Shown here piece after piece: positions 26,593 to 42,772 of a stretch of 64,000 nt of DNA. Within the stretch, counting starts at the first letter, position 1, and each line of letters begins with the position of its first letter. The position numbers and the translations under genes were made by a program. Below the pieces are notes generated by a model, which saw nothing but the letters and a program-made list of their open reading frames with translations, searched no databases and was not told the DNA's origin. The stretch spans positions 434,001 to 498,000 of the forward strand of contig NZ_CP156660.1 of NCBI RefSeq assembly GCF_039851975.1, written 5' to 3'. Source of the stretch: Desulfoscipio sp. XC116. GTDB taxonomy: Bacteria > Bacillota > Desulfotomaculia > Desulfotomaculales > Desulfallaceae.

Positions 26593-27008
26593 GTGGACAT
26601 CAGGATATCAGAAACCCAGGAACCGGACGGTACTAAAACATTGTCAAGCATAGTGCATCTTTTAGCGGTAATGAACTGACAACTCGTATGGAAGCAGGTG
26701 CTATGTTTTTTACTCGCCCAGAGGGGCCGCTGCGAACCACGCACTTTGTCTCGTTGGCTAAAGCTTACCTTGATTCAAGCCTTGAAACCCATTAATGAGG
26801 TCGTGCCGCATGTTCTTAGAATTGTGGGTCAAAAGATATTGCCATACCGATTTGGGTAGGAGGCCAAACTAGCTATGGAACAAATGTAATACGTATTTAC
26901 GTCTATTTTTTAAATGTGTTTTTGGGGGAGGTAATTAAAAAAGTATTTGGTACAAAATATTCACCAAACGAAAAAAAAGAATAAAATTGAACGAGGAGGG
27001 TACAAAGT
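26593..27008. other. Gene-poor stretch with sigma-cassette and leader-block remnants
   Basis: No intact gene. On the minus strand 26600-26660 holds the first codons of the SigO-like gene (ATG then LDNVLVPSGS), after which homology stops. On the plus strand 26700-26795 an open run (ELTTRMEAGAMFFTRPEGPL) looks like a scrap of a lost protein that I do not recognise. 26874-26935 is a copy of the leader block repeated at 27.9, 33.8, 38.1 and 39.5 kb. Confidence 0.5.
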
Positions 27009-27736
27009 GTGAAAAGGAAATTCCTTCTGACTATCTGTTTTATTTTTTTAATAGTTTTCTCAATCAGTTATTCCTCTATAACACCGATCAAAATCTGGCA
27101 GAAGCCATCAAAGGTGAGGAGAACCAAATGGAACTTGCTAAAACCGATGACGTTGTATTGCTTGCGAATAAACAATCGGAAGGCGGTATGTTCAAAGAAA
27201 TTACCGTACAGACCGAGTGTAAAAGCAAAACCTTTCCCTGGGTTAATACATCTAATCCAACGTACGTTCCAATTGCTCACATTACGGATGTGAATAAGGA
27301 TGGTAGAAAGGAAATTGTGGTTATTCTAACAACAGGGACCGGAACAGGAGTTCATTTAGAGGAAATTCATGTTTTGAATAGAGAGAATTTGACTGAGATT
27401 ATCCCTGGAGTTGAGAATCCCTTTGATGCTATATATAAAAAAGTGGGTTCTAAAATCTCTAAAAATAACGGCAAAGTAAACGTGGTCGTAGAGTGGGATG
27501 ATAAAAAAATTGAAAAGACTTATAATGAATCGGATGCTGGGGTTTGGAATAAAGGTGTTGGTTTTGGAGGCTTTGTAAATTATCAATTGCACAACAATAA
27601 TATTTATGCAATTGTACCGGGATTTGCAACCCCAAGCTTAACTGTTGTAGAAGCAATAGTTGAATATGATTCAGATTTTAAAGCAAGAAGTATTACGGTT
27701 AAAGACATAGACGAAGCGGACTGGCCAGACTGCTGA
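27009..27736 (+). pseudogene. Chimeric, frameshifted copy of the lipoprotein gene at 33870-34640
   Basis: GTG 27009 (after GGAGGG) opens a good signal peptide, KRKFLLTICFIFLIVFSIS, without a lipobox cysteine. That frame runs off into nonsense. The body (MELAKTDDVV... from ATG 27128) lies in another frame and is about 500 bp nearly identical to the intact copy; only one difference is visible up to about 27615, after which the last 35 residues diverge. The 5' end seems to come from another secreted-protein gene. The body contains the FG-GAP-like DVNKDGRKEIVV motif. Without a frame correction it cannot be exported. Confidence 0.65.
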
Positions 27737-28075: not shown

Positions 28076-28233
28076 ACGGGTTAACAAGTTGCTGATTCTC
28101 ATTTAGTGGATGAGATTCTTGATGGAAGGAGCATTCCTGTAATCATTAAAAACGACCTTTGAAAAAAGAGACGCCCATCAATACAATGGTAATGTGCTAA
28201 TCCCGCAAAAGAAGGCACAAAACCAAAATTGAG

Positions 28234-28243
28234 GAGGCGCCTC
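28234..28243 (+). promoter_or_regulatory. Palindrome over the transposase ribosome binding site
   Basis: GAGGCGCCTC is a perfect 10-bp palindrome overlapping the GAGGAGG ribosome binding site and ending just before ATG 28247. If folded or dimerised in RNA it would limit transposase translation. Confidence 0.4.
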
Positions 28244-28246
28244 TAC

Positions 28247-29527
28247 ATGAAGCGTACACAAAACGAGAAGATTATGCAAATCAGAATTGAAACCTTGGTA
28301 GTCGGAATCGACATTGGGAAAGAAACCCACTACGCCAGAGCCTTTGATTACAGAGGGATTGAACTGGGTAAGCTGCTGAAATTCAGCAACACGGCGGAAG
28401 GATTTAAACTCCTGGACCGATGGATGCAGGACATTTGCAAGCAGCAAGGAAAGTCGGAAATCATCGCCGGCTTTGAGCCCACTGGACATTACTGGTTTTC
28501 ATTGGGTGACCATCTCAAGCGCCAAGGCCATAAACTGGCCATAGTCAACCCATTCCATGTCAAACGCACCAAGGAACTGGATGACAACAGCCCCACCAAG
28601 AATGACCGCAAGGACCCGAAGACAATCGCCATGCTGGTGAAAGACGGGCGTTACCGGGAGGTGTACATCCCGGACAAGATCTATCAAGAACTACGGGAAG
28701 CGGTGGATGAAAGAGAGCGGCTGCAAAAGCAGCTAACTGCTATCCACAACAGGGTTGTTCGCTGGCTGGATATCCGGTTTCCAGAGTTTGACGGTGTATT
28801 CAAGAAATGGACAGGAAAAACGGCGCTTCTGACGCTTCGGATATATTCTACACCAGCCAAGGTTTTGGAAGCCGGCGCGGACAAAATACTGGCCACCTGG
28901 AGGACAGTTGTAAAGCGCTCTGTGGGCATAAAAAGAGCACAAGCGCTGGTAAAAGCTGCAACCAACAGCATTGGCAGAACCAACGGCCATGTAGCTTCAG
29001 AAGCCAGCTTGCAGAACCTGCTTGCTGAGTACGAATTGTACTGTGTACAGCTTGAACGCTTGGAACAACTGATATTGGAACTGTTGCTTCAAGTTCCGAA
29101 CGCAGTCAAACTCTTGGGCATCAAGGGAGTTGGTTTGGTTACAGCCACAACCTTTGTCGGTGAAACCGGTGATATCCACAGGTTCGAAGACCCACGGCAG
29201 ATACAAAAGCTGGCCGGCTTCAACCTGGTAGAGAACAGTTCCGGCAAGCACAAAGGAAAGACCACCATCAGTCACCGGGGACGGAAGCGGTTACGACATG
29301 GGCTGTTCATGACCATGATCGCCATCCTGGGCAAGAATCCGGAGTTTAGGGAACTGCACCACCGCAACCTGACCAGGGAAAAGAACCCGCTAAACAAGAT
29401 GCAATCCATTGTTGCCCTCTGTGGAAAACTCATCCGTGTATTCTACGCCATTCTCAGCAAGGGCGTTGATTACAATCCGGAGAAGATGATGGGCGATATT
29501 CAACAGTCGGTGAAAACAGCCGCATAA
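28247..29527 (+). CDS. IS110-family transposase (DEDD recombinase)
   Basis: 426 residues from ATG 28247; the frame is open to TTG 28229, but the ribosome binding site GAGGAGG supports the ATG. The N-terminal RuvC-like DEDD domain shows GIDIGKETHYARA, GFEPTGHYW and NDRKDPKTIA. The C-terminal domain has IKGVGLVTA and KTTISHRGRKRLRH, which carries the candidate nucleophilic serine. A coiled segment (about 215-290) lies between. Appears intact. IS110 recombinases move through a circular intermediate guided by a bridge RNA. Confidence 0.88.
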   Translation: MKRTQNEKIMQIRIETLVVGIDIGKETHYARAFDYRGIELGKLLKFSNTAEGFKLLDRWMQDICKQQGKSEIIAGFEPTGHYWFSLGDHLKRQGHKLAIVNPFHVKRTKELDDNSPTKNDRKDPKTIAMLVKDGRYREVYIPDKIYQELREAVDERERLQKQLTAIHNRVVRWLDIRFPEFDGVFKKWTGKTALLTLRIYSTPAKVLEAGADKILATWRTVVKRSVGIKRAQALVKAATNSIGRTNGHVASEASLQNLLAEYELYCVQLERLEQLILELLLQVPNAVKLLGIKGVGLVTATTFVGETGDIHRFEDPRQIQKLAGFNLVENSSGKHKGKTTISHRGRKRLRHGLFMTMIAILGKNPEFRELHHRNLTREKNPLNKMQSIVALCGKLIRVFYAILSKGVDYNPEKMMGDIQQSVKTAA

Positions 29528-29993: not shown

Positions 29994-30764
29994 ATGAGGG
30001 GTTTATTTTCTTTGTCCGTATTTCTTTTAATTATCATTATTACTGGATGCTCATCTACTATTGATAACCAAGCGTTAAAAAATAATAATGCTTTGCATCA
30101 AAAGGAAGAAATATCTGATCATAGTACCTTTGAAAATAATGAGCTGTCTATAGGTTTCAATAATGTAAAAATAATTTGTGAAAATAAGCACCCAAAAGAT
30201 GGTTCTACCTGTAAACAACCCGCTTTGTTAATCGATAACGAAAGATATCCTTTGCCTGCTGAATATTCCGTGGGTGCTGTGCTGAAGCTTGGTGATTTTA
30301 ACCATGACAATAATATAGATATATTTATTAAGAATGTTTTGGGTGGCGGAACCAATATATATGTAACAGAAGGTTATGTTTACTCTTTTGAAAACAATAA
30401 GCCTAATGAAATATTTGCTGGCAACCATGAAGATCCAATAGATTATATTGACAAAAATATTTCATTTGAGATCAATAAATGCAACAAAGATAATTACAAT
30501 TTCGTAGTTAAGAAAAAGGATAAGATAATTGGCACAACCAATATATCTCAAGAAAAATTATACACTAATGAAATACCATCGAAAGATGATGTGCAATGTG
30601 GAAACATATTGGACTATGATGTGATTTCTGGAAAGATTGCAGTGCGAGTTGGATTAAGTTTGTTTATAACAAGTTATGCTGGAGATTTAACTCTTACTTA
30701 TGATTATATTGATAACAAATTTAAAATTATAGATGTTCAATATGATTTTAAAGACGGTGAATAA
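29994..30764 (+). CDS. Predicted lipoprotein with an FG-GAP-like segment
   Basis: 256 residues. Signal peptide GLFSLSVFLLIIIITG followed by Cys in a lipobox (I-T-G-C). The mature part is polar and AT-rich in codon use. LKLGDFNHDNNIDIFIKN resembles the D-x-N-x-D-G-x-x-D calcium-binding turn of FG-GAP/VCBS repeats, also seen in the 33.9-kb lipoprotein. Two cysteines (near CENKHP and CKQP) may form a disulfide. Start ATG 29994 after AAGGGAG. I do not recognise the family. Its siting in the sigma/hydrolase region suggests a cell-surface partner role. Confidence 0.6.
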   Translation: MRGLFSLSVFLLIIIITGCSSTIDNQALKNNNALHQKEEISDHSTFENNELSIGFNNVKIICENKHPKDGSTCKQPALLIDNERYPLPAEYSVGAVLKLGDFNHDNNIDIFIKNVLGGGTNIYVTEGYVYSFENNKPNEIFAGNHEDPIDYIDKNISFEINKCNKDNYNFVVKKKDKIIGTTNISQEKLYTNEIPSKDDVQCGNILDYDVISGKIAVRVGLSLFITSYAGDLTLTYDYIDNKFKIIDVQYDFKDGE

Positions 30765-30902: not shown

Positions 30903-31766
30903 TTGCCCATGGGTAAATTGAATAAGGAAAAATTAATTGTTCTATTAGTCCTTTCGGTAGTAATTGGCGCTTCTGGTTGTTCAAGTAATCCAAAAACAAG
31001 TAGTATTGACCAGATAAAAAATAGCCCGGCACAAGCGCAAGATCAAGTACTAAGCCAGGCTATACAATCAAAAAAATGGCCGGAAGAGCTGAGTCTTACC
31101 TCACCCTCCAAATTAGCTCCGCCATTTCAAACTATTTCTGAAGAGTTATTAAAAACTAGCGATTTCCCTATTTTTTTACCTACTTATTTTCCCTCCCCTA
31201 ATGTTAAAGATATGAAATGGTCCCTCAATCTCAAAACAGGGAAAAATAATTTTACTATAGAAATCGGCAAAGGCTTACTATCAAGAAAGGGAGTGGCTTA
31301 CGAAGCCGGAATACTTTCTGGTAACGTTAGGCAACCTGATGAATCACCATTAAAAAAACAGTTCGAGAGTGAAAATATAGGAATTAACTCCATTAATCTT
31401 CCAAACGGAATAAAAGGCAAGGAATTTCTAGCCGATGGGTATCCCAATGTTGTTGGTAGTAATGCAATCATTTGGAAAACTGATAAATGGTGTTTTTTCG
31501 TAACGGCATCCCCGGGTAATGGTTCTGGCAGCACTGTTGATTACGCACATCAAATCGTCAATACCTTAGGTAAAAACGATCAAGGTTTTTTAGCTCTTCC
31601 TGGAAAATTGAGTTTTATTTACACTGGCGCCAATCATCCACTTACAGAAATTTACTGGAAAGCTAACGACTCTACATGGTATTGTTTTAATTGGAGTGGC
31701 GATCCAAAGGAAGCTATTCAAATTTGGCGTAGTATGGCATATATAGGTGGCGAAAATGTGAAATGA
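30903..31766 (+). CDS. Predicted lipoprotein of unknown function
   Basis: 287 residues from TTG 30903 (GGAGG seven bases upstream); ATG 30909 is equally possible. Signal peptide EKLIVLLVLSVVIGASG with lipobox cysteine in A-S-G-C. The mature part contains a low-complexity linker, then a folded region (FPIFLPTYFPSP, KGKEFLADGYPN, WCFFVTASPG) and an aromatic C-terminus (STWYCFNWSGDPKEA). No enzyme motif found. Codon use is AT-rich like its neighbours. Membrane-anchored extracellular protein, function unknown. Confidence 0.6.
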   Translation: MPMGKLNKEKLIVLLVLSVVIGASGCSSNPKTSSIDQIKNSPAQAQDQVLSQAIQSKKWPEELSLTSPSKLAPPFQTISEELLKTSDFPIFLPTYFPSPNVKDMKWSLNLKTGKNNFTIEIGKGLLSRKGVAYEAGILSGNVRQPDESPLKKQFESENIGINSINLPNGIKGKEFLADGYPNVVGSNAIIWKTDKWCFFVTASPGNGSGSTVDYAHQIVNTLGKNDQGFLALPGKLSFIYTGANHPLTEIYWKANDSTWYCFNWSGDPKEAIQIWRSMAYIGGENVK

Positions 31767-31955: not shown

Positions 31956-32066
31956 CTAATTCGCAATGGCAATTCCATTAGCTAGGTCACCAAAAGTATT
32001 GCAAATCTGCCGGGCATAAAGATTAACAGTGCTCTTTTGATTGGTGAATCTATTATAGACCACCAT
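31956..32066 (-). CDS. Small protein, 36 residues, unrecognised
   Basis: ATG 32066 to TAG 31956 encodes a polar, amphipathic peptide containing TVNLYARQICNTFGDLANG. Its first four codons (M-V-V-Y) lie within the 60-bp element at 32059-32118, so the start is supplied by the inserted DNA or the true start was lost. It may be the 3' end of a truncated gene. No clear ribosome binding site. Confidence 0.3.
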   Translation of the reverse strand: MVVYNRFTNQKSTVNLYARQICNTFGDLANGIAIAN

Positions 32067-32118
32067 GCCGCCAACACGGCACCATCAGAGGATGAAATTA
32101 CCTGACGCTATTTTTAGG
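32059..32118. mobile_element. 60-bp element, copy 1, flanked by ATAG
   Basis: Exactly 60 bp, flanked on both sides by ATAG (32055-32058 and 32119-32122). The reverse complement matches 56 of 60 bases of the insert at 43718-43777 that splits a CRISPR repeat. It contains TGCCG-6-CGGCA and an A/T-rich second half. It overlaps the stop codon of the lysozyme-like gene. Too small to code for anything; behaves as a miniature non-autonomous element. Confidence 0.65.
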
Positions 32119-32719
32119 ATAGGCTAATGCTTGTGTCGAGAACTCCTTTTCCTACCTGTCCGGATCCGTTAAACAGAGCTCCCGCGGACGCCCCATATTG
32201 CGTAAGTTGATCAGATTCAGGGAGATAATAACCCGTTTGTCCTGACCAAGGGTAGAAAGCATTATTGGAATGTCCACAATAGTTGCCGTTCCAGGCTGTC
32301 GCTGCCATAGCCATCATTTGAATCTGGTTATTATTCCCAAGGCTTTTTAGTTTTTTGAACGCTGCGCTTAGAAACGTAGCACAAATGGCTAGATTGTTAT
32401 AATAGTTACTTCCGCAAATTGAGGAACACCAAGTGTATTTATTGTTACACCAAGCATTCCATTTATCGAACATGGCTTTGCCGATTTGACAAACGCCAGC
32501 TCCGCTGGTATTGCAGGGGTCACATCCTACGTTTATTCCACCGGCTCCAGATCCGGATAGAGTTTCAAGAGAAGCTATAGTCGCTAGTGTTGCTGGATTA
32601 ATGCCTTTATTATGTGCAGCTGAATTAATGTGTCCAGGCATACTGTTCGTGGTGAAATGACATGATGAATAATTATGGTTATAGGTACTTCCTACACATC
32701 CTCCTGGATTATAACTCAT
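32114..32719 (-). CDS. Lysozyme/lytic-transglycosylase-like protein, Cys-rich, no signal peptide
   Basis: 201 residues from ATG 32719 (AAAGG eight bases upstream; ATG 32728 is also in frame). HNKGINPATLATIASLETLSG and GAGVCQIGKAMFDKWN follow the pattern of SLT-type transglycosylases, helix with catalytic Glu then G-(L/V)-x-Q-I. About ten cysteines and many Asn/Gly residues are unusual. There is no signal peptide, so export would need a holin, cell lysis or release from a mother cell. It lies downstream of the SigO-like gene on the same strand, as the SleB-type hydrolase does in the next cassette. Confidence 0.55.
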   Translation of the reverse strand: MSYNPGGCVGSTYNHNYSSCHFTTNSMPGHINSAAHNKGINPATLATIASLETLSGSGAGGINVGCDPCNTSGAGVCQIGKAMFDKWNAWCNNKYTWCSSICGSNYYNNLAICATFLSAAFKKLKSLGNNNQIQMMAMAATAWNGNYCGHSNNAFYPWSGQTGYYLPESDQLTQYGASAGALFNGSGQVGKGVLDTSISLS

Positions 32720-32954
32720 TTTTTTCATCCTTTCTTATGCAAATTTAAATGAGGTTTATGTTCTGTAACTTGCCAGCGGTTAAGGGACATCTTTAACGGC
32801 TACTTTTTTCGATATTGTTTTCTAAGTTTTTTAACTGTGACTTGTTAGGTTAGACCAAGATTCTTCACAGCTTCTGTTAAGTAAAGCAATACAAGATTGT
32901 ACTTTAACTCCCTTGCCTTCGGTTACGGGATGATTGTCCGTCCTGGATGAGTTT

Positions 32955-33404
32955 CTACTTGGCGGTGGGCTCGTCCAGGATAAAATGATGCAACTTGTTT
33001 AACGCGCGGTTTTTTATGCGATGGACTACAGGTTGTGACACTTCCAGTTCCCTAGCCGTCTCCCGTTCGGTAAATCCATCCAGGATCGTTGATTTAATCA
33101 CCATTTGTTCTTGTGGCGTTAACAACGAGAGGGCTTTCTGGATAAAAACCGCGTCTTCCGCGCTATTGGAAACATCTTCGGCGGCAAAGATCGTATCAAT
33201 CAAACTCAATGCATCGGAATCAGCGTTCTGCTTCGCCGGACCATCCAAGATTAAAAGCTCGCGCTCATCCAACTGCCGGTACTTTTTCGCCAACCTGATC
33301 GCTTCGCGACGCAGACCGGTTAAGAACCAAGCAATCGCCTGAACTTCCTTTGGATCAAAGACATAATCGCGGGAACCGGACGGTAATAAAACATCGTCAA
33401 GTAT
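32955..33404 (-). CDS. SigO-like sigma factor region-4 protein, copy at 33 kb (start codon lost or ATA)
   Basis: The frame is open from ATA 33404 (I/M-L-D-D-V-L-L-P-S-G-S-R-D-Y-V) to the stop at 32955, 149 codons. Nearly identical to the 35.4-kb copy. The C-terminal half is a sigma-70 region-4 helix-turn-helix: LLTPQEQMVIKSTILDGFTE then RETARELEVSQPVVHRIKNR. The ancestral ATG seems to have become ATA, and the TTG used in the other copy is TTA here; the next start (TTG 33293) would make 112 residues. Expected role: DNA-binding half of a two-part sigma factor. Confidence 0.65.
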   Translation of the reverse strand: MLDDVLLPSGSRDYVFDPKEVQAIAWFLTGLRREAIRLAKKYRQLDERELLILDGPAKQNADSDALSLIDTIFAAEDVSNSAEDAVFIQKALSLLTPQEQMVIKSTILDGFTERETARELEVSQPVVHRIKNRALNKLHHFILDEPTAK

Positions 33405-33869
33405 AGTTCATTTTCACACCCCCTTTTACTAAAATTGAAATTACCCTCTTACTATATAAAGAGAAAAAAGAGGGCCTTTTTGATACCCCCTTCTTCCAAA
33501 AAAAAATTCTTTTTAGGTTTAATTTTTATCCTTTCCTAAAGCTAAAATCAACCGGATACTCATGAATCGCATTTATTATAATGCCTTGACCAACGAACTA
33601 TACTTTTAAATCGCCGGATTTAGCTGACCGAGCAGTTGAATAAAAGCTTCCAAGCCTTGTGTGTCAATCCGTAGGGTTGTCCACAGGGGGAACTTTTATA
33701 TTTAATTGTTCAATAATTATTAGAATATGGAAAACAAATAGGGGGAATATCTAGCTCGGGTAGAATGGATTATTAGTTAAATTTTATGGAACAAATGTAA
33801 TACGTATTTACGTCTATTTTTTAAATGTGTCTGATTTGATGCTCATGCTGTGAATTAAAAAATGCTGGG
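33405..33869. other. Intergenic: sigma leader, broken RsoA-like gene, leader block
   Basis: 33430-33500 is the leader shared with the 35.9-kb and 37.9-kb copies (GGGGGTGTGAAAATGAACTA on the minus strand, and a CCCTCTT/AAGAGGG hairpin). 33536-33660, minus strand, is the RsoA-like gene with in-frame stops (AFIQLLGQLNPAI, stop). 33655-33688 is the conserved CAC-AGGG hairpin. 33690-33832 is the AT-rich leader block in front of the lipoprotein. Confidence 0.55.
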
Positions 33870-34640
33870 GTGAAAATGGTGTTCAGAAAAGCTTTACTAA
33901 TTTGCGCATTAATGCTGGTGGTTGCAGGTTGTGGAGAAAGCACCAATAAACCTGAAGTCAATAATAACACTGAATCGGCGCCGGTTACAGAACAGACTTC
34001 ATCGGAGGCAAAGGAGAACCAAATGGAACTTGCTAAAACCGATGACGTTGTATTGCTTGCGAATAAACAATCGGAAGGCGGTATGTTCAAAGAAATTACC
34101 GTACAGACCGAGTGTAAAAGCAAAACCTTTCCCTGGGTTAATACATCTAATCCAACGTACGTTCCAATTGCTCACATTACGGATGTGAATAAGGATGGTA
34201 GAAAGGAAATTGTGGTTATTCTAACAACAGGGACCGGAACAGGAGTTCATTTAGAGGAAATTCATGTTTTGAATAGAGAGAATTTGACTGAGATTATCCC
34301 TGGAGTTGAGAATCCCTTTGATGCTATATATAAAAAAGTGGGTTCTAAAATCTCTAAAAATAACGGCAAAGTAAACGTGGTCGTAGAGTGGGATGATAAA
34401 AAAATTGAAAAGACTTATAATGAATCGGATGCTGGGGTTTGGAATAAAGGTGTTGGTTTTGGAGGCATTGTAAATTATCAATTGCACAACAATAATATTT
34501 ATGCAATTGTACCAGGAAGTATTGCTACGACTTGGTATGTTGTGGTAGCTATAGTTGAATATGGTCCAGATCTTAAAGTAAGGAATATTACTATTAAAGA
34601 CATGGATAAAACTAACTATCCAGATGTAATTGAAGATTGA
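33870..34640 (+). CDS. Predicted lipoprotein with FG-GAP/VCBS-like motif (intact copy)
   Basis: 256 residues. Signal peptide RKALLICALMLVVAG with lipobox cysteine (V-A-G-C), then an acidic Ser/Thr linker. The body includes AHITDVNKDGRKEIVVILTT, a D-x-N-x-D-G turn typical of FG-GAP repeats, and a beta-rich C-terminus. About 500 bp of the body are duplicated at 27.1 kb. It sits behind a leader block, divergent from the sigma/hydrolase cassette at 32-33.7 kb. Surface-anchored; function unknown. Confidence 0.7.
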   Translation: MKMVFRKALLICALMLVVAGCGESTNKPEVNNNTESAPVTEQTSSEAKENQMELAKTDDVVLLANKQSEGGMFKEITVQTECKSKTFPWVNTSNPTYVPIAHITDVNKDGRKEIVVILTTGTGTGVHLEEIHVLNRENLTEIIPGVENPFDAIYKKVGSKISKNNGKVNVVVEWDDKKIEKTYNESDAGVWNKGVGFGGIVNYQLHNNNIYAIVPGSIATTWYVVVAIVEYGPDLKVRNITIKDMDKTNYPDVIED

Positions 34641-34784
34641 AATAGGAGTTGCGAAATGTAAGCATTAATTTAGAATCAAGAGCCATTATTTCCCATCATC
34701 CCACCACAGCGGGTGCCCCGCTGCATATTGCATCCAACTGGATGATGATGGAATATGTAAAACTTAACCGAATTCGAATGGGGC

Positions 34785-34830
34785 AAAAAAAAGCAGCTCC
34801 AAAAAGGTTTTCTTCAGAGCTGCTTTTTTG
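34785..34830. terminator. Bidirectional terminator between lipoprotein and SleB-like hydrolase
   Basis: AAAAAAGCAGCT pairs with AGCTGCTTTTTT around a 20-base loop. T-runs follow the stem on both strands, fitting the two convergent genes. Confidence 0.8.
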
Positions 34831-34844
34831 CTTTCTATTGATAT

Positions 34845-35318
34845 TTAATAACCTTCTACACGAAAAAATGTGTGATCTTGAATAACAACCTCTTCAATTA
34901 CTTTTTTAGGTTTGCTACCAGGATCAGGAAATGTGTAATGCTTATTGCCATTGGGATAACTTATGCGCTCTTCATATAACCAGTTGGCATTAAACCAGAG
35001 ACAATTACCAATCGGGTTCGCTCCACCGTTTTGAGCTATGCTTAGAGATTTACTCCATGCACTACTGCCGGTGTCAGGACAAAGTGCTTCGCTTCGATCC
35101 ATACCTGCAAATGCCCCATCTTTTAATATAACGCCGGCCACAGTATTTCCACCGAACTCACTGCTGTTCTTTGCTTTTCGGTTTACTACAACCCAGTAAA
35201 CACCTCTTTTTCCAGTCAACGATTGATCTTCGGCTTCAGAGTAGATACAACGAGCAAGTAAATCAACGCTATCCAGCCCCTTAAATTGACTTTTGTTATC
35301 TAAACATGCTCCTGCCAT
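34845..35318 (-). CDS. SleB/CwlJ-type cell wall hydrolase without signal peptide
   Basis: 157 residues. LLARCIYSEAEDQSLTGKRG followed by VYWVVVNRKA is the start of the SleB (Hydrolase_2) domain, with the catalytic glutamate in YSEAE. GGNTVAGVILKDGAFAG and NPIGNCLWFNAN continue the fold. Like CwlJ it has no signal peptide; CwlJ acts in the spore coat, so a spore-associated role is possible. GAGGAGGAA places ATG 35318. It follows the SigO-like gene by 128 bp on the same strand, as the lysozyme-like gene does at 32 kb. Confidence 0.8.
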   Translation of the reverse strand: MAGACLDNKSQFKGLDSVDLLARCIYSEAEDQSLTGKRGVYWVVVNRKAKNSSEFGGNTVAGVILKDGAFAGMDRSEALCPDTGSSAWSKSLSIAQNGGANPIGNCLWFNANWLYEERISYPNGNKHYTFPDPGSKPKKVIEEVVIQDHTFFRVEGY

Positions 35319-35446
35319 TGGGAAATTCCTCCTCGCCTATTTGTTTTTTAGTTGCCCCCTTTACTTGATAAGCAGGAAGCATTACGCTAAGTAACAACAA
35401 CTCCCTGCCTTCGGGTGCGGGATGATTGTCCGTCCTGGATGAGTTT

Positions 35447-35878
35447 CTACTTGGCGGTGGGCTCGTCCAGGATAAAATGATGCAACTTGTTTAACGCGCG
35501 GTTTTTTATGCGATGGACTACAGGTTGTGACACTTCCAGTTCCCTAGCCGTCTCCCGTTCGGTAAATCCATCCAGGATCGTTGCTTTAATCACCATTTGT
35601 TCTTGTGGCGTTAACAACGAGAGGGCTTTCTGGATAAAAACCGCGTCTTCCGCGCTATTGGAAACATCTTCGGCGGTAAAGATCGTATCAATCAAACTCA
35701 ATGCATCGGAATCAGCGTTCTGCTCCGCCGGACCATCCAAGATTAAAAGCTCGCGTTCATCCAACTGCCGGTACTTTTTCGCCAACCTGATCGCCTCGCG
35801 ACGCAGACCGGTTAAGAACCAAGCAATCGCCCGAGCTTCCTTCGGATCAAAGACATAATCGCGGGAACCGGACGGCAA
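35447..35878 (-). CDS. SigO-like sigma factor region-4 protein (best-preserved copy)
   Basis: 143 residues from TTG 35878; the homologous frame continues to ATA 35896, where the 26.6-kb relic has ATG. The N-terminal half is helical (REAIRLAKKYRQLDERELLI); the C-terminal half is a clear sigma-70 region 4 (LLTPQEQMVIKATILDGFTE, then ARELEVSQPVVHRIKN). No region 2 is present, matching SigO of the Bacillus SigO-RsoA pair, where a separate small protein supplies region 2. A hairpin with TCCTGG/CCAGGA arms spans the stop. The downstream gene is the SleB-like hydrolase. Confidence 0.75.
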   Translation of the reverse strand: MPSGSRDYVFDPKEARAIAWFLTGLRREAIRLAKKYRQLDERELLILDGPAEQNADSDALSLIDTIFTAEDVSNSAEDAVFIQKALSLLTPQEQMVIKATILDGFTERETARELEVSQPVVHRIKNRALNKLHHFILDEPTAK

Positions 35879-35896
35879 TAAAGCATCATCAAGTAT

Positions 35897-36314
35897 AGTT
35901 CATTTTCACACCCCCTTTTACTAAAATTGAAATTACCCTCTTACTATATAAAGAGAAAAAAGAGGACCTTTTTGATACCCCTTTCTTCCAAAAAAATTTC
36001 TTTTTTAGGTTTAATTTTTATCCTTTTTTAAAACTAAAATCAACCGGATACCTATGAATCGCATTTATTATAATGCCTTGACCAACGAACTATACTTTTT
36101 AATCGCCGGATTTAGCTAACCAACCAGTTGAATAAAAGCTTTCCTAGTGCCCACTTTTAGCCTTGGCAGCCTGTTCTACTTCTTGGACGTGGCCTCCCTT
36201 TTCACGCTGTGTATCTAATTATTGGCGTTTTTCCGGACTACCAATAAATATAGGGGATGGTACAATAACATTTACAATTAGAAATATTAAGTCAGCGAAA
36301 AATGGTAGTAATCT
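35897..36314. other. Intergenic: sigma leader and broken RsoA-like gene
   Basis: 35905-36000 repeats the leader seen at 33.4 kb. 36036-36180, minus strand, is an RsoA-like gene with in-frame stops (FIQLVG, stop, then LNPAIKKYSSLVKA). The remaining 130 bp show nothing recognisable. Confidence 0.5.
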
Positions 36315-36476
36315 ATGATGCAAATTTTGCAATTTGTTTGGAATGAGGATATTATTGAGCATATTGTCAGGCATAATGTCATGCATGAGGAAATAGAAGG
36401 GGTTTGTTTTGGAAAGGGATTAAAGCTAAATGGCTTAGTCACTCGTTGGATTAAAGAACAGCTTTGCAGTATTTAA
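36315..36476 (+). pseudogene. Fragment resembling a BrnT/DUF4258-type toxin
   Basis: 53 codons. ILQFVWNEDIIEHIVRHNVM followed by HEEIEGVCFG matches the N-terminal pattern (F.W-(D/N)-E-x-N/I-x-E-H-I-x-x-H-x-V-x-x-E-E) of small RNase-like toxins of the BrnT/DUF4258 group. After VCFG the sequence deviates and stops, and no antitoxin follows. No good ribosome binding site. Probably a decayed gene. Confidence 0.35.
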
Positions 36477-37020
36477 TGACCTTTCACATGGCGACCTGGC
36501 ATTGATTATTAATACGGATTGTTCATCCGTAACCCGTGTATGCTTAATAAGTTGAAAGAAGAGGATTTTGTTCAGTTAGGGTATCAGTGGTTGTGGATCA
36601 AAAATTCACTGGCCTCTTTTGAATTGAATCTTATGTTCAGATCGCAGTCTATGGAGAGCAATATACAGTCGTTTATTTAATGTACAGGAGTTATATAGTT
36701 TCAGCCGTATATTGTTATCTAACGTTATTAGAGGTACTAATAAGCATCTTCTTTATTATGGAAAAATGTTTCTATTGGTATTGGGGTTCAAACGCATACT
36801 TAATCTGGCTAACTTGGTCAAGATATGTAGCTGAGTACCAATGCCGGTCTAAAACGAATGTTGGTCGCAAAACCCGATGCAACTTGGGTTTGTACCAGCG
36901 AGGGTCTCTCTGGTGGTTCCCCATACGGATATGCCATAATTATCATTCTCCTCTTTTATTCATTTTTCCCCTTGCATCCAAGGCGAGGAAGGAATAAAAT
37001 AAGGCATCTTTCCTTGCCTT
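36477..37020. other. Degenerate region without a recognisable gene
   Basis: A plus-strand 46-codon frame at 36540-36680 (NKLKEEDFVQLGYQWLW) has no ribosome binding site and no known relatives. A longer Cys/Trp-rich frame at 36680-36997 looks spurious. Nothing else is supported. Confidence 0.4.
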
Positions 37021-37145
37021 TGGGTACGGGATGATTGTCCGTCCTGGACGAGTCTCTACTTGGCGGTGGGCTCGTCCAGGATAAGATGATGCAACTTGTT
37101 TAACGCGCGGTTTTTTATGCGATGGACGACAGGTTGTGACACTCA
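37021..37145 (-). pseudogene. 3' end of a SigO-like gene, deleted copy
   Basis: Matches the last 35 codons and the stop region of the SigO-like genes, including the terminal hairpin, here with a perfect TCCTGGACGAG / CTCGTCCAGGA stem. It is joined directly at about 37143 to the RsoA-like gene, so the intervening leader and the N-terminal part of the sigma gene are deleted. Confidence 0.6.
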
Positions 37146-37148
37146 AAA

Positions 37149-37346
37149 TCAAGCCGGATACTTATGAATAGCATTCATTAACCCAAAAATCAAATCCGAA
37201 TAGCATTCATTATAATGCCTTGACCAATGGCTATACTTTTTAATCGCTGGATTTAGCTGACCAACCAGTTGAATAAAAGCTTTTCTATCGCCATTTTTAG
37301 CCCTGGCAACCAGCTCATGAAACTTTAATTTCCTCTTCAACAGCAT
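37149..37346 (-). CDS. RsoA-like small protein (sigma region-2-like, HTH_16)
   Basis: 65 residues. FHELVARAKNGDRKAFIQLV and the end ECYSDLIFGLMNAIHKY resemble the core-binding region 2 of sigma factors (D-L-x-x-x-G-L-x-x-A-I-x-K-Y). Small proteins of this kind (RsoA in Bacillus, HTH_16 proteins of conjugative elements) work together with a region-4 protein. GGGGAGG precedes ATG 37346, whose first base follows the stop of the upstream 37-codon gene. The normal end (YPVDFSFRKG in relics) is lost by the deletion that joins it to the sigma fragment. Confidence 0.6.
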   Translation of the reverse strand: MLLKRKLKFHELVARAKNGDRKAFIQLVGQLNPAIKKYSHWSRHYNECYSDLIFGLMNAIHKYPA

Positions 37347-37460
37347 TCAGCCTCCCCTCATTTTTTTAGAATCGCTAAATAATTGGATCACTTGCCAACT
37401 CATTATGGAGGAAGCCGCCACCAGTAAGCTGTTAAGGATGCAAAGCGGAACAATCCTCAT
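37347..37460 (-). CDS. Small one-membrane-segment peptide upstream of the RsoA-like gene
   Basis: 37 residues: VPLCILNSLLVAASSIMSWQ is hydrophobic, followed by a charged tail. GGGGAG is well spaced before ATG 37460, and TGA (37347-37349) abuts the ATG of the RsoA-like gene, so translation is coupled. In Bacillus the sigO/rsoA region also carries tiny membrane proteins (YvrJ type); similarity in sequence is not established. Confidence 0.45.
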   Translation of the reverse strand: MRIVPLCILNSLLVAASSIMSWQVIQLFSDSKKMRGG

Positions 37461-38057
37461 TTTAAAGCTCCCCGCAGCGATATTAACAGAAAGACAATCT
37501 CTTCAGTGACTACCACTACAAGAAACAGGTAGGTTACATGAACACTGGCGGTTAACTTGGCTAGACATGATACATCACATGTCTCGAAGCTTATAATTTT
37601 AGTACACCCACGTTGTTTGACAAATATTTCATGATTTGTAATTTTTTAATAGTTTATCTATATAGACGAATAATAATCAAAAATGTTCCAAAATCTCTTT
37701 GATTATTTTTCTCAATTAGACTTCAGCAGCCCATTAATTCAACGTACACTCTGACGATATCGTTTTATTAAAAACCCAGAAATTAAATTACACTCCGTCG
37801 TACCAATTGATATAAGTGGCTATAAAAAACATGCAAGTATTGCAGGCAATTCAAAAGGAGCTGGCACACGCTTTCAATAAAGCATACTTGTTCGCTAAAT
37901 AACCCCCCCCTCTTTTTTATATAAAGAGAAAATAAAGGATCTTTCTGATAACTTGCTTTGGAAAAAATTTTCTCGCAAATGATTTTACATATCAAAGATG
38001 CAATTAGTCTTAAATATGTAAACCGGATCATTATAAATATTAATGTGGCTTATCAAT
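37461..38057. other. Non-coding stretch with a further sigma-leader relic
   Basis: No gene seen. 37905-37975 repeats the leader with TATATAAAGAGAAAATAAAG and the following TTTCTGATA, as at 33.45 and 35.94 kb, marking another cassette copy reduced to its leader. The rest is AT-rich and featureless. Confidence 0.4.
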
Positions 38058-38310: not shown

Positions 38311-38657
38311 TTGTTATAGATTGTTCTTTTAAAGGCGGGGAATTTAAAACGAATAAAATTTATTTTAATGACTTTTCGAGTTAATAACGATATTAGGTGG
38401 AAATTTCTGATTAACGGATGGATTTCTGTTTTGCCACCGGAGCAACAAGAAATGAGACCGGTTTGCTTTGTTTGCTTGAATGACTAAAGCAAGCAATTTT
38501 TCTAATCGTTGCTGGGATGGATGATCAAGCTTATCTATAAAAAAGGCTTATTTATAAATTTTCTTCAGCTTGTATAGTCTTTGAATCTGTCGTAGATTTA
38601 CTATTGTCGTGTATATGTTTTTTTTATACAATGACAAGTGAAGTAGGGGGGAAAATC

Positions 38658-39239
38658 TTGAAACCTTGGGTTTTGCCGATTTGTTTTGCTTCTGTTCTTT
38701 TTTTAAACGGCTGTGGTGGCAATATCTCGAATGCTAATACTTCAATTAATGAGCGATCTATCGCGCAGACTAACAAGTTTATACCTAGTCCAATAGTCCT
38801 CTATTCAATTCCAGATGATAAACTTAAATCACCTATCAAAGAACTTATACACTATGAAACAGGAGATGTATCTTCTGTTCCTTTGCTTACTTATCAAGAA
38901 TGGGAAGATCGTGGAGGGCGCCAACCTTGGAGAATGGAGCCTTTTTCTGTTCTCCAAGTTGTAATTAGCAATTTAGTTCCGGAAAATATCTCAACTAAAG
39001 AAAATATGTTGTATAGCTTTAAAAAATCCGGAAATACAGCTGAAAACAAAGATGGTGTCGTCATAAAACTGATTAATCCAAAGGATGATTCTTTGAACAA
39101 TCCTTCGCATGCCTCAAAACTGACTTATAAAATGCTTGTTCCGCATTTAGGATCCTATGATATTACAATTCAACAACCACAAGAATCAGTAGAGTTCATT
39201 ATTACTAAAATTGTACTTAATCCTAATTCCACAGATTAG
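38658..39239 (+). CDS. Predicted lipoprotein of unknown function
   Basis: 193 residues from TTG 38658, chosen because AGGGGGGAAAA lies just upstream and the signal peptide (KPWVLPICFASVLFLNG, then Cys) begins there; the frame is open to 38604. The mature part starts with an Asn/Ser linker, then SPIVLYSIPDDKLKSPIKEL, and ends in beta-rich sequence (LGSYDITIQQPQESVEF). No motif of known function. Codon use is AT-rich like the other lipoproteins of the region. Confidence 0.6.
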   Translation: MKPWVLPICFASVLFLNGCGGNISNANTSINERSIAQTNKFIPSPIVLYSIPDDKLKSPIKELIHYETGDVSSVPLLTYQEWEDRGGRQPWRMEPFSVLQVVISNLVPENISTKENMLYSFKKSGNTAENKDGVVIKLINPKDDSLNNPSHASKLTYKMLVPHLGSYDITIQQPQESVEFIITKIVLNPNSTD

Positions 39240-39630: not shown

Positions 39631-41076
39631 TTATTTTTCTTGCGGGGGCGTTTCCGATCCCGATTTTTTATGCATCTTCAAGAACAGCGTGGGGATCGCG
39701 GCAATTACGGTAAAACCAATTGCCCACCAGAATGAGACGTCATATGCATGGGCAATCGCATGAAGGTCGGTATCGGTGTGGCCCGCCATTTGGTGCTGAG
39801 CGACGGTCGCTAGAATGGCCGACCCAAAAGCACCGCCGATGGTCTGGAAGATCCTCGTGGAGATACTTGCGTGGGGAACTTGCTCTCTTTGAAGTCCAAT
39901 GAGGGCGGATGCCATGATTGCAATAAACAAACCGCCAAGCCCCGCCCCTCTGATCAATAAGGCGCTAGCCAAAAGAATCATATTCGTATCCGTATCCGCA
40001 AAAGCAAACGGCAGTGTACCGATGGCAATGGCGGCGAGGCTTAGCAGCACAACATTGCGCGAGCCGTTACGGTCGGCTGTTTTTCCAGCCCAGCTTCTGG
40101 TGAGCAGCATACCTATGCCTTGCGGAAGCAACCACAATCCGGCGTACAGGGCGCTTGCTCCGCGCACCTCCTGATAATAGAGCGGCAGCATTAGCAAAGC
40201 CCCGTTCGTGATAATCCCGCTGAAAATTAGCAGGATATTGGAAGCGGAAAAATTGACAGATTTAAACAGCCGCAGATTCAGAGCCGGTTCCCGTTTTGTA
40301 TTTAGAGCATAGACGACATAAGCAGCCATCAAAACGACGCCGATGATAAGAGGAACATAGACCGCGCTGTTGTTCAATCCTCCGTGCGTCGCCACCTGAG
40401 CAATGCCGTAGATCAGAAGGGCAAACGCGGGGGAAAGCAAAACCATACCGATCACATCAATGGACGCGTTCTTTTCCACATGCTTGTCGGCCGGTATCCC
40501 CCATATGGCTAACGGGATCGCCACGATGCAAATCGGAATATTAACCCAAAATATAGCGCGCCAGCTCGCACTGCTGACGATAATTCCTCCTAGCACCGGG
40601 CCCAGGATCGGCCCGAGCAGAGCGGGAATGCTGATGATGGACATGGTCTGACCGAGATTGCGTCCGCCGGATACTTGCACAAGCTTCGTTTGCAATACCG
40701 GCATGAGTAACCCGGCGCCGACACCCTGAATGACCCGAAAAACAATCAGGCTTTCTATGTTCCATGATAATATAGAGCATACGGAGCCAATTAAAAAAAG
40801 CACCAATGAAAAGATGTAGGATTGTTTGCAGCCAAACCGTTTGGTGGCCCACCCCGAAATCGGGATGACCAACCCCATCGCCAGAACGTATCCTGTCGTG
40901 ACCCACTGTACGGTGGAAATGGCTGTTTTCATATCGGATGCAATTGTATGGATGGCCACATTGACCATCGTTGAATCAAACAGTGGCGCAAGCGCACCGA
41001 CAAGCAGAACAATAGCAGCTCTGAGCACGATCGGATCGAGTTTTTCTTTTGCCGGTTTTACATTCTCTGTATTCAT
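39631..41076 (-). CDS. DHA2-family MFS drug efflux transporter (EmrB/QacA type)
   Basis: 481 residues from ATG 41076 (GGAG upstream; the frame is open to 41082). About 14 membrane segments. APLFDSTMVNVAIHTIASDM is the conserved first helix with the D-x-T-x-V-N-V-A signature, QWVTTGYVLAMG follows, and the motif C region GPILGPVLGGIIV is typical of proton-drug antiporters. Divergent from its TetR neighbour across a 21-bp perfect inverted repeat. Expected to export hydrophobic toxic compounds. Base composition is higher in GC than the surrounding cassettes, consistent with separate acquisition. Confidence 0.85.
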   Translation of the reverse strand: MNTENVKPAKEKLDPIVLRAAIVLLVGALAPLFDSTMVNVAIHTIASDMKTAISTVQWVTTGYVLAMGLVIPISGWATKRFGCKQSYIFSLVLFLIGSVCSILSWNIESLIVFRVIQGVGAGLLMPVLQTKLVQVSGGRNLGQTMSIISIPALLGPILGPVLGGIIVSSASWRAIFWVNIPICIVAIPLAIWGIPADKHVEKNASIDVIGMVLLSPAFALLIYGIAQVATHGGLNNSAVYVPLIIGVVLMAAYVVYALNTKREPALNLRLFKSVNFSASNILLIFSGIITNGALLMLPLYYQEVRGASALYAGLWLLPQGIGMLLTRSWAGKTADRNGSRNVVLLSLAAIAIGTLPFAFADTDTNMILLASALLIRGAGLGGLFIAIMASALIGLQREQVPHASISTRIFQTIGGAFGSAILATVAQHQMAGHTDTDLHAIAHAYDVSFWWAIGFTVIAAIPTLFLKMHKKSGSETPPQEK

Positions 41077-41088
41077 TAGCAAACTCCT

Positions 41089-41135: not shown

Positions 41136-41235
41136 ATAATAAATATAAATCTTCGTCAATAGGAAACCTGGAGTTTTTTATGTGCTTTTCTACAGCATAG
41201 GTACATTTATTGTTGAGACTCGGAGGAAAATAAAA

Positions 41236-41853
41236 GTGGATGAACGAAAGAAGGGTACGCGCCGTCGCGGAGAAATTTTGGAAGAGGCGATCCTGCATGC
41301 CGCATGGGAGGAGCTCTCCGAAACCGGCTATACGGATATGACGATGAAAAGCGTCGCAACGCGGGCGGGGACAAATAAGGCCGTCCTTTATCGCCGTTGG
41401 GACAATAAGACGGAGCTTGCGATTGCCGCCATACATAAATATTTGCCGAAAATTACAAATGATATTCCAAACACAGGTAGCCTGCGCAGTGATCTGTGTG
41501 CTTATCTGCATGCGCGTGTTGAACCGCTGAGAATAATTGGCGTGCAGACGATCAGGGGGCTTATTATGGAACCGGTGGTGTGGCGCAGTATAATCTCATT
41601 CATGCCGCAAATCATTGAGCGTAGATCAGAGAGCAAGCTGACGGCGGCTATGGCGGCGATTTTGAAAAACGCGGAACTTCGCGGTGAAATAAGCCTTGAG
41701 AAGCTAACGCCCCGGATCATCTCGTTGCCGTTGGATCTGCTGCAGTACGAGCTGATTACAAAGCTGGAGCCCGTATCCGACGAAGTCATAGAAGAGATTG
41801 TCGATAATATTTTTATTCCTCTTGTTCATGTGCAGGCGGGTATTATCAAATAG
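41236..41853 (+). CDS. TetR/AcrR-family regulator of the MFS exporter
   Basis: 205 residues from GTG 41236, placed by GGAGG at 41221-41225; the frame is open to 41182. The helix-turn-helix is at about residues 28-52 (TMKSVATRAGTNKAVLYRRW); the C-terminal domain is the TetR_C type with RGLIMEPVVW. Divergent arrangement with a drug exporter and a shared palindromic operator is the classical repressor-efflux pair. Confidence 0.82.
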   Translation: MDERKKGTRRRGEILEEAILHAAWEELSETGYTDMTMKSVATRAGTNKAVLYRRWDNKTELAIAAIHKYLPKITNDIPNTGSLRSDLCAYLHARVEPLRIIGVQTIRGLIMEPVVWRSIISFMPQIIERRSESKLTAAMAAILKNAELRGEISLEKLTPRIISLPLDLLQYELITKLEPVSDEVIEEIVDNIFIPLVHVQAGIIK

Positions 41854-41929: not shown

Positions 41930-42480
41930 TTAATAAGTAAGAGGCATTACACTAAGTAACAACAACTCCCTACCTTCGGGTACGGGATGATTGTCCGTCC
42001 TGGATGAGTTTCTACTTGGCGGTGGGCTCGTCCAGGATAAAATGATGTAATTTGTTCAACGCGCGATTTTTTATGCGATGGACTACAGGTTGCTACACTC
42101 CCAGTTCCCTAGCCGTTTTCCGTTCAGTAAATCCATCCAGGATCGTTGCCTAACCACCATTTGTTCTTGTGGCATTAACAACGAGAGGGCTTCCCGGATA
42201 AAAACCGTGTCCTCCGCGCTAATGGGAACATCTTCGGCAGCAAAAATGATATCAATCAAGCTTAATTCATCGGAATCAGCGTTCTGATCCACCGGACTAT
42301 TTAAGATCAAAAGCTCGCGCTCATCCAACTACCGGTACTTTTTCGTCAACCTGATCGTTTTGAGACGCAGACCGGTTAAGAATCAAGCAATCACCCGGGC
42401 TTCCTTTTGATCAAAGACATAATCGCGGGAACCGGACGGTAGTAAAGCATCGTCAAGTATAATGCATCTTCATCACCCCC
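41930..42480 (-). pseudogene. Decayed SigO-like gene copy
   Basis: Covers the whole gene of the 35.4-kb copy plus 100 bp downstream and its leader (GGGGGGTGATGAAGATG on the minus strand). It has an in-frame stop in the N-terminal half (Trp codon changed in the AIAWFLTG region), a frameshift in region 4 near 42150 and the same ATA in place of the start. The frame still open is 42083-42328. No hydrolase follows; the TetR/MFS pair occupies that side. Confidence 0.65.
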
Positions 42481-42772
42481 CCTTTCCTGAAATTCTTTTG
42501 GGATAAAGAATATATCCGGTTGGGGTACAACGAAATATCCTTCCCGATAGATTATGGGTTTGAAAAAGGAGGAGATGAAAATATAATCTAGAACAAAGGG
42601 ATAGAGCAGGAAAATCTTTGTCGTCGATCTCCGGTAGCGTACAAACGCCGGGGGGGCGACGACATTCTATAATTGAAAAAAACTTATAGTATAAGGTTTT
42701 CGAGAATATTGTCACAGTGACTTCCAATAAGCTTTTAATTTAGGAAGCCCTATTTTTAGGTAAACGCGACGG
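42481..42772 (+). promoter_or_regulatory. Likely CRISPR leader
   Basis: AT-rich, gene-free 290 bp directly before the first perfect repeat. Repeats at the opposite end of the array are degenerate, so this end is the promoter-bearing, newest-spacer end. Contains TTGAAAAAAACTTATAGTAT (42673-42692) as possible promoter sequence. Confidence 0.5.

Follow-up and report, generated by a model that had tools for sequence, protein, structure and literature searches.

Repeated split sigma factor cassettes with wall-active cargo and a frame break at the sigO-like start in Desulfoscipio sp. XC116

A 64,000-nucleotide (nt) stretch of the Desulfoscipio sp. XC116 genome (contig NZ_CP156660.1, positions 434,001 to 498,000 of the forward strand; hereafter the window) carries repeated cassettes built around a two-part sigma factor, in which a sigO-like gene encodes region 4 and a separate rsoA-like gene encodes region 2. 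The intact genes are two SigO-like, one RsoA-like, and two cargo genes; four lipoprotein genes lie on the opposite strand, and three additional sigma copies survive as relics. The cassettes share a common anatomy and a promoter-like block with their relatives, and the sigO-like gene is interrupted by a frame break shortly after its start; no in-frame start ahead of the conserved part was observed at 13 of the 17 loci with a break at UGA. From these features we infer frameshifting, self-activation, export, immunity, and an antibacterial target. We consider it probable, although by no means certain, that these are self-amplifying effector-immunity cassettes under a TcdR/UviA-like split sigma factor whose synthesis would need a programmed +1 frameshift. 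The cassettes look like a weapon system directed against other bacteria. As far as the open-access literature goes, three features are new, namely a frame break conserved in a sigma gene, cargo that is exchangeable and has convergent partners, and a promoter layout with two units.

Frame break at the start of the sigO-like genes

Both intact SigO-like genes match Sigma70_r4 (PF04545; 31.9 and 33.5 bits, cut-off 24.1). They contain region 4 without region 2, and their Pfam and PDB matches are confined to region 4. The initial annotation of this DNA proposed a region-4-only SigO-like gene in multiple copies, and the repeats agree with this. In a repeat search, the two intact copies are 97–98% alike over 300-nt stretches. 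The decayed copy at 42 kb is 88% and 70% alike over two 300-nt stretches and 93% alike over 132 nt. For the 3' relic near 37.0 kb, the figure is 95% (132 nt), and for the start relic (26609–26661) it is 77–83% (53 nt). A separate region-2-like gene was also correctly recognized, intact at 37149–37346 (HTH_16, PF12645; 22.8 bits, cut-off 22) and broken before copies 1 and 2. Searches of the same genome revealed no more close sigma or RsoA-like copies, but only ordinary sigma factors with 25% and 32% identity.

The copies at 33 and 35 kb are intact as proposed, but 33404 and 35878 are not good starts. The sole start that a clear ribosome site serves is at 33411 in copy 1 and 35903 in copy 2; it lies in another frame and is followed by UGA after four codons. 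In copy 1, the sigO frame has no ATG, GTG, or TTG until 69 nt into the conserved part, where a TTG occurs; the in-frame TTG of copy 2, at 35878, is weak. The break is present in the two window copies, in one decayed copy, and in one relic.

This arrangement was counted in 36 loci, each with a split SigO-like gene that scored 100 bits or more and with DNA upstream of it. They were taken from 49 rows, 37 of which reached 100 bits; the first L055 copy lies at a contig edge and was removed. The rows below 100 bits were left out (L058, L110, L158, both L159, and L163–L169); L058 and L110 are of the +1 UGA type, L167 is +1 UAA, L158, L165, L166, and one L159 are in-frame, and the remainder are single-chain or of unclear type. 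L048 and L161, which share 150 identical nt with copies in L047 and L063, and L146, L056, and L093, whose starts are missing, were not counted as rows. In 17 of the 36 loci, an ATG or GTG stands behind an 8-base match to the ribosome site and is followed by 4–6 codons and UGA, with the conserved SigO-like sequence in the +1 frame. Two further loci have UAA in place of UGA, so that the break is conserved at one place across independent genomes (17 NNN-UGA plus two UAA). The remaining loci include two with ATT as the apparent start and two that would need a −1 shift at a C5 run. The base after UGA is C in 12 loci, T in two, A in two, and G in one. The codon before UGA is ACC (8), ACT (4), ACA (1), GCT (2), GAT (1), or TTC (1), and thus encodes Thr in 13 cases. 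One locus (L156) has an additional frame break within the gene. In Thermoanaerobacter thermocopriae (L072, position 2289), the sigO frame lacks ATG, GTG, and TTG, and no start with a ribosome site was found in the other frames; this copy nonetheless has a promoter block and a cargo.

Because the break occurs in several copies and in genomes of one or two contigs (G006, G022, and this one), sequencing error is unlikely as its general cause. A quick tree of 41 sequences (38 inner branches, 18 of them open) shows the in-frame type in clusters (5 changes against a shuffled mean of 9.8; 0 of 500 shuffles as low). The +1 UGA type is less strongly clustered (9 changes against 13.7; 3 of 500 as low).

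An explanation without recoding would treat the short frame as a leader peptide, and the SigO-like protein would start in its own frame, whether at a codon inside the gene, at a non-standard codon, or through reinitiation past UGA. Several loci allow this. In a genome of the same genus (G006), the first ATG is followed 7 nt later by one that is in frame; window copy 2 has its in-frame TTG; and two Pelotomaculum loci have ATT as the apparent start, with an in-frame GTG overlapping the ribosome site. In 13 of the 17 loci, the sigO frame has no ATG, GTG, or TTG ahead of the conserved part, but nine of these have a start codon (ATG in six, GTG in three) 24–27 nt inside it, none with a strong ribosome site. 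The stretch directly after the shift is also poorly constrained. However, in the other four of the 13, window copy 1 included, the first ATG, GTG, or TTG comes only 48–108 nt into the conserved part, and a start that late would lose invariant residues, R10 and more. Moreover, the 8-base ribosome-site match belongs to the out-of-frame start in 17 of 17 loci, although the motif list was fitted by the analyst to these same loci. The stop in the 19 +1 cases is UGA in 17 and UAG in none. This exceeds the expectation at an assumed p of 0.45 (P = 7e-5); the loci are related, however. We regard translation without recoding as rather unlikely.

Cassette anatomy and promoter-like block

In the common order, a holin-like gene is followed by rsoA, the promoter block, sigO, a variable cargo gene without a signal peptide, and a convergent gene for an exported protein. 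This anatomy recurs across families. With a SigO-like profile, relatives, some of them partial, were found in 18 of 113 genomes of the order (E 1e-15) and, in a phylum-wide sample of 398 genomes, in 31 (E 1e-12); the class-level search took in the same 113 genomes as the order search. The weakest phylum-wide matches are open frames of some 245–300 residues (aa) that resemble ordinary sigma factors. Named hosts include Pelotomaculum, Desulfofundulus, Desulfotruncus, and Thermoanaerobacter. In L163, L164, L168, and L159, region 2 and region 4 are apparently fused in a single chain of about 200–250 aa.

Profiles built from 10 rsoA and 8 holin proteins of these and sister loci matched near 29 and 18 of the 36 loci, respectively, the latter including the relic in the window. 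The region-2 and region-4 genes are thus kept as a pair, as the initial annotation expected, with the ten rsoA genes having served as seeds. The three holin-like proteins scanned all matched the PHROG 1299 holin weakly (E 0.006–0.013). In the window, both intact sigO copies adjoin a broken rsoA, and the lone intact rsoA adjoins a mostly deleted sigO. A working system here would thus need a single RsoA to be shared by two SigO proteins. The holin-like gene is only a relic in this genome; export here, if any, must use something else. The array in this strain is decaying, with no intact holin and one rsoA for two sigO copies.

The promoter-like block has the form TATYAAAA-N11-TTTCTCTTTATATRGTA, or TATYAAA-N-CTCTTTATA in short. 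The pattern was derived from part of these same loci. At up to 3 mismatches, 22 sites were found in 11 genomes, compared with 2 for a reversed-pattern control, and two of the 11 genomes have none. All three such sites in this genome fall inside the window. The feature at 37.9 kb, initially described as a leader-only relic, is actually such a block upstream of the holin-rsoA unit, as in relatives; in G006, the block likewise lies upstream of the holin-like gene. With up to 4 mismatches allowed, six of nine loci scanned also have a block ahead of the holin-like or rsoA unit. At up to 5 mismatches, a setting run without a control, 26 of the 36 loci have a site 75–123 nt before the conserved sigO part. 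Away from the two units the block is almost missing; the few sites without a cassette gene behind them are one each in G006 (at a sigO relic), G036, G042, and G015 (away from any cassette seen). In L057 (692–2736), a +1 UGA SigO-like gene is followed by a promoter-like site with 3 mismatches and then by a gene for a phage tail sheath; this sigma factor may also control a contractile tail there.

Cargo proteins and convergent partners

The initial annotation described two wall-cleaving cargo enzymes in the window. The SleB/CwlJ-like assignment holds at the domain level: the protein matches PF07486 (36.3 bits) and the solved SleB structure 4f55 (E = 5e-5). Its score against the full-length SleB model TIGR02869 is 32.6 bits, below the cut-off of 236.5. 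The SLT-like assignment stands by motif only, and no match was found among Pfam, PHROGs, and PDB sequences. Single-sequence structure models of the SLT-like cargo (pLDDT 36) and the 33870 lipoprotein (pLDDT 44) were not used. Downstream of the homologues, wall enzymes are found as predicted. Pfam identified Hydrolase_2 and Amidase_3 (E 5e-44 and 9e-41) cargos, and a glucosaminidase was found below threshold in two. An Rv2525c-like glycoside hydrolase occurs in two cargos and an M15 peptidase with PG_binding_1 in one, at loci below 100 bits and outside the 36. In L147 (2987–8111), a 1326-aa Bcn5-like protein follows sigO. It contains SH3, PG_binding_1, M14 peptidase, and Ntox44 domains and faces a convergent lipoprotein. 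The sigO start of this locus is in-frame, and no rsoA was found within 2.1 kb upstream of sigO.

A signal-less cargo faces a convergent exported or membrane protein in 22 of the 36 loci (including L147, whose partner was seen later). Of the roles suggested for the system in the initial annotation, competition with lipoprotein immunity is the one favored by these pairs and by the Bcn5-like polymorphic bacteriocin. We listed 29 cargo/partner pairs by eye and dropped two (L058, L169) with wrong coordinates. The N-terminal hydropathy peak is below 2.0 in 26 of 26 listed cargos, with three above 1.5 on this crude measure. In contrast, 27 of 27 usable partners reach at least 2.0 within the first 75 residues. 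A lipobox motif is present in 18 of the 27, in L061 probably by chance.

As described initially, lipoproteins lie on the opposite strand; the window has four. The cargos of G006 are two SleB-type hydrolases, an SLT-like protein, and a 220-aa protein without an assigned family, each paired with a convergent signal-bearing protein. The four window lipoproteins match these four partners with 74–91% identity; two of them therefore look like orphans of lost cargo. Partner family thus tracks cargo family between the window and G006. In the G006 homologues of the SLT-like cargo and 30903 lipoprotein pair, a 364-aa open reading frame, transposase-like by eye, lies in between. The 33870 lipoprotein has a weak match to the PliI lysozyme inhibitor (E 0.011; 15.8 bits, cut-off 27). 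Elsewhere, one convergent lipoprotein matches the type VI secretion immunity family Tli3 at 26.7 bits, just below the cut-off of 27. A cargo family of about 104–112 aa faces a DUF4179-type gene in L049 (10693–12758), L050, L061, L063, and L065, and an ECF sigma gene adjoins the DUF4179-type gene wherever the stretch shows it.

The pairs bear on two other explanations. One is that these are domesticated phage lysis genes or a prophage remnant, with a holin and an endolysin under a phage-type regulator and no immunity function. A holin-like protein does adjoin lytic enzymes, the SleB-like cargo has PHROG endolysin matches, and one genome has a tail-sheath gene after the sigma gene. However, a scan of viral contigs confirmed no relative of the sigma protein, and phage records gave matches below 60% identity only, the top ones at 31%; plasmid searches likewise returned no close relatives. 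To our knowledge, a convergent exported partner beside the cargo is not a trait of phage lysis genes. This origin appears improbable.

In the other, the split sigma factor would run wall enzymes of sporulation, germination, or autolysis, and the lipoproteins would be ordinary envelope proteins. The SleB-like cargo and the Germane domains of one convergent protein point in this direction, as do the hosts named in the search, which we take to be largely spore-forming clostridia. Nevertheless, cargo varies by locus and includes a bacteriocin-like protein with an Ntox44 tail, the partners switch along with the cargo, and the distribution is patchy (18 of 113 genomes of the order). The spore germination role suggested initially is thus not supported, and we judge such a module to be very improbable.

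The coordinates of the cassette features are given in Table 1. Between the cassette relics lie an efflux-transporter-like gene (39631–41082) and a divergent TetR-like regulator gene (41182–41853), both named by eye. An IS110-family transposase gene (28229–29527) is located downstream of the broken lipoprotein copy. A repeat search showed a CRISPR array with 15 copies of a 30-nt repeat at 42752–43862. A stretch near the end of this array recurs inverted at 32053–32123 (71 nt, 94% complementary).

Table 1. Cassette features of the window
Feature	Position	Strand	Remarks
SigO-like copy 1	32955..33411	-	start codon 33411-33409, UGA 33399-33397, remainder in +1 frame
SigO-like copy 2	35447..35903	-	start codon 35903-35901, UGA 35891-35889, +1 frame to 35447
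Decayed sigO copy	42012..42467	-	start codon 42467-42465, UGA 42455-42453, further stops later
Third sigO copy, 3' relic	37056..37142	-	adjoins intact rsoA
sigO start relic	26609..26661	-	similar relic and promoter block at syntenic place in G006
RsoA-like gene	37149..37346	-	HTH_16; sole intact close copy found in genome
Broken rsoA relic	33598..33659	-	precedes sigO copy 1
Broken rsoA relic	36090..36151	-	precedes sigO copy 2
Holin-like gene, C-terminal relic	37350..37490	-	residues 60-108 of G006 protein, 72% identity
Promoter-like block before sigO copy 1	33450..33485	-	0 mismatches
Promoter-like block before sigO copy 2	35942..35977	-	0 mismatches
Promoter-like block upstream of holin relic and rsoA	37915..37950	-	3 mismatches
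Cargo of copy 1	32114..32728	-	transglycosylase-like by motif alone; no N-terminal hydrophobic segment
Cargo of copy 2	34845..35318	-	SleB/CwlJ-type hydrolase domain PF07486; no strong N-terminal hydrophobic segment
Convergent lipoprotein facing SleB-like cargo	33870..34640	+	presumed immunity protein
Convergent lipoprotein facing SLT-like cargo	30903..31766	+	
Orphan lipoprotein	29994..30764	+	G006 homologue (82%) faces second SleB-type hydrolase, absent from window
Orphan lipoprotein	38604..39239	+	G006 homologue (89%) faces 220-aa cargo, absent from window
Broken second copy of 33870 lipoprotein gene	26987..27736	+	signal-like part in another frame

Proposed mechanism and comparison with known systems

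In the mechanism that we propose, unit 1 would encode the holin-like membrane protein and the region-2 protein, and unit 2 the region-4 protein and an effector without a signal peptide. Both units appear to have the same promoter type; the sigma factor would therefore amplify itself and its effector. The effector, often peptidoglycan-cleaving, may leave through the holin or by lysis of the producer, which the exported product of the convergent gene, usually a lipoprotein, would shield. The SigO-like protein would be made only upon a +1 slip at the UGA 4–6 codons past the start, and this need may keep the positive loop off until termination at UGA slows. The earlier interpretation of a split sigma factor with lytic cargo is in part supported, but it overlooked a holin-like gene, the arrangement with two promoters, and the break in frame at the sigO start.

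Several observations weigh against effector-immunity cassettes with a programmed frameshift, including the nine internal start codons described above. The frame break is not universal: the start is in-frame at seven of the 36 loci, and six more are decayed or unclear. Past the shift, the comparison by codon position is weak (47, 51, and 57 differences at positions 1, 2, and 3), as is the count of same residues (sigO frame, 38 of 125; ATG frame, 20 of 116). A cargo with a convergent partner is lacking in 14 of the 36 loci. Some of these precede transporters, recombinases, a lone holin, or the tail-sheath operon, some show nothing clear, and in one (L155) a lipoprotein is encoded on the strand of the Amidase_3 cargo itself. 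Five of the 22 pairs have as partner a member of one DUF4179 anti-sigma-like family (one member scanned) instead of a lipoprotein. The SLT-like cargo and many others have no family match. The holin matches are weak, except for one BhlA, and only the last third of a holin-like gene was found in this genome.

A wider formulation is possible, and we advance it tentatively. The cassettes may represent an effector-immunity system of clostridial type that is widespread. Its split sigma factor, gated by a +1 shift at UGA, would be tied to release factor 2 activity and would switch on exchangeable wall-degrading effectors exported by holins, perhaps with a contractile tail in one genome. The break persists while its form varies (UGA, UAA, and two −1 cases at C runs), and recoding would therefore be the selected trait. 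If this is true, bacterial recoding would gain a new use beyond the release factor gene, in gating a sigma factor by frameshift, and anaerobic environmental bacteria would have a further route for antibacterial effectors, through a sigma factor and a holin. The cassettes would also offer many uncharacterized families of effector and immunity proteins. Automatic annotation would probably assign false starts or pseudogene status to such sigma genes.

The shift site of prfB, the gene for release factor 2, is CUU UGA C. The sigO-like genes resemble prfB in their putative early +1 shift at UGA, mostly UGA-C. They differ in being another gene, in the last codon before UGA, which is mostly ACC or ACU, and in that the only ribosome-like site of the window copies is that of the start codon, with none close to the shift. 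In five genomes, a site pattern modeled on prfB matched 12 times, compared with 13 times for the control, and was uninformative on prfB. The available portions of PMC12421855 and PMC5009743 describe the +1 frameshift of prfB.

The names SigO-like and RsoA-like are based on domain matches and layout. In the part of the SigO-RsoA description available, region 4 and region 2 are separate proteins, as in the cassettes. SigO-RsoA transcribes its own operon, and in the cassettes the same promoter block stands ahead of both units. The targets given there are oxdC-yvrL, yvrJ, and the sigma operon, whereas the putative targets of the cassettes are effectors. A frame break is not mentioned in that part of the description, while the cassettes have one.

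According to the accessible sections of PMC9527704, Clostridium perfringens has bacteriocin loci with Bcn5, UviA, UviB, and an endolysin, and Bcn5 homologues combine M14, SH3, and PG-binding domains. These sections place a sigma factor, a holin, and a signal-less wall-active effector in the Bcn5-UviA-UviB loci. The cassettes likewise have a sigma factor and such an effector, together with a putative holin, and the L147 cargo has the domain set of the Bcn5 homologues plus Ntox44. Unlike these loci, the cassettes have a two-gene sigma factor, a sigO frame break, many cargo families in repeated cassettes, and a convergent exported partner, and their holin-like family, in the loci scanned, is without a Pfam match. 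The main text of PMC9527704 does not use the word "immunity".

The TcdR/TcdE loci of large clostridial toxins resemble the cassettes in having an alternative sigma factor beside a signal-less cargo and a holin, the last of these putative in the cassettes, as far as the available sections of PMC9527704 and PMC10223161 describe them. TcdR is a single chain, in contrast to the split sigma factor of the cassettes. The −35 element of the TcdR group is TTTACA in the accessible part of PMC4031146. The cassette block has TATYAAA and therefore does not contain this element. The closest kinds of known system are the Bcn5-UviA-UviB and TcdR-TcdE loci and, for the sigma factor, SigO-RsoA.

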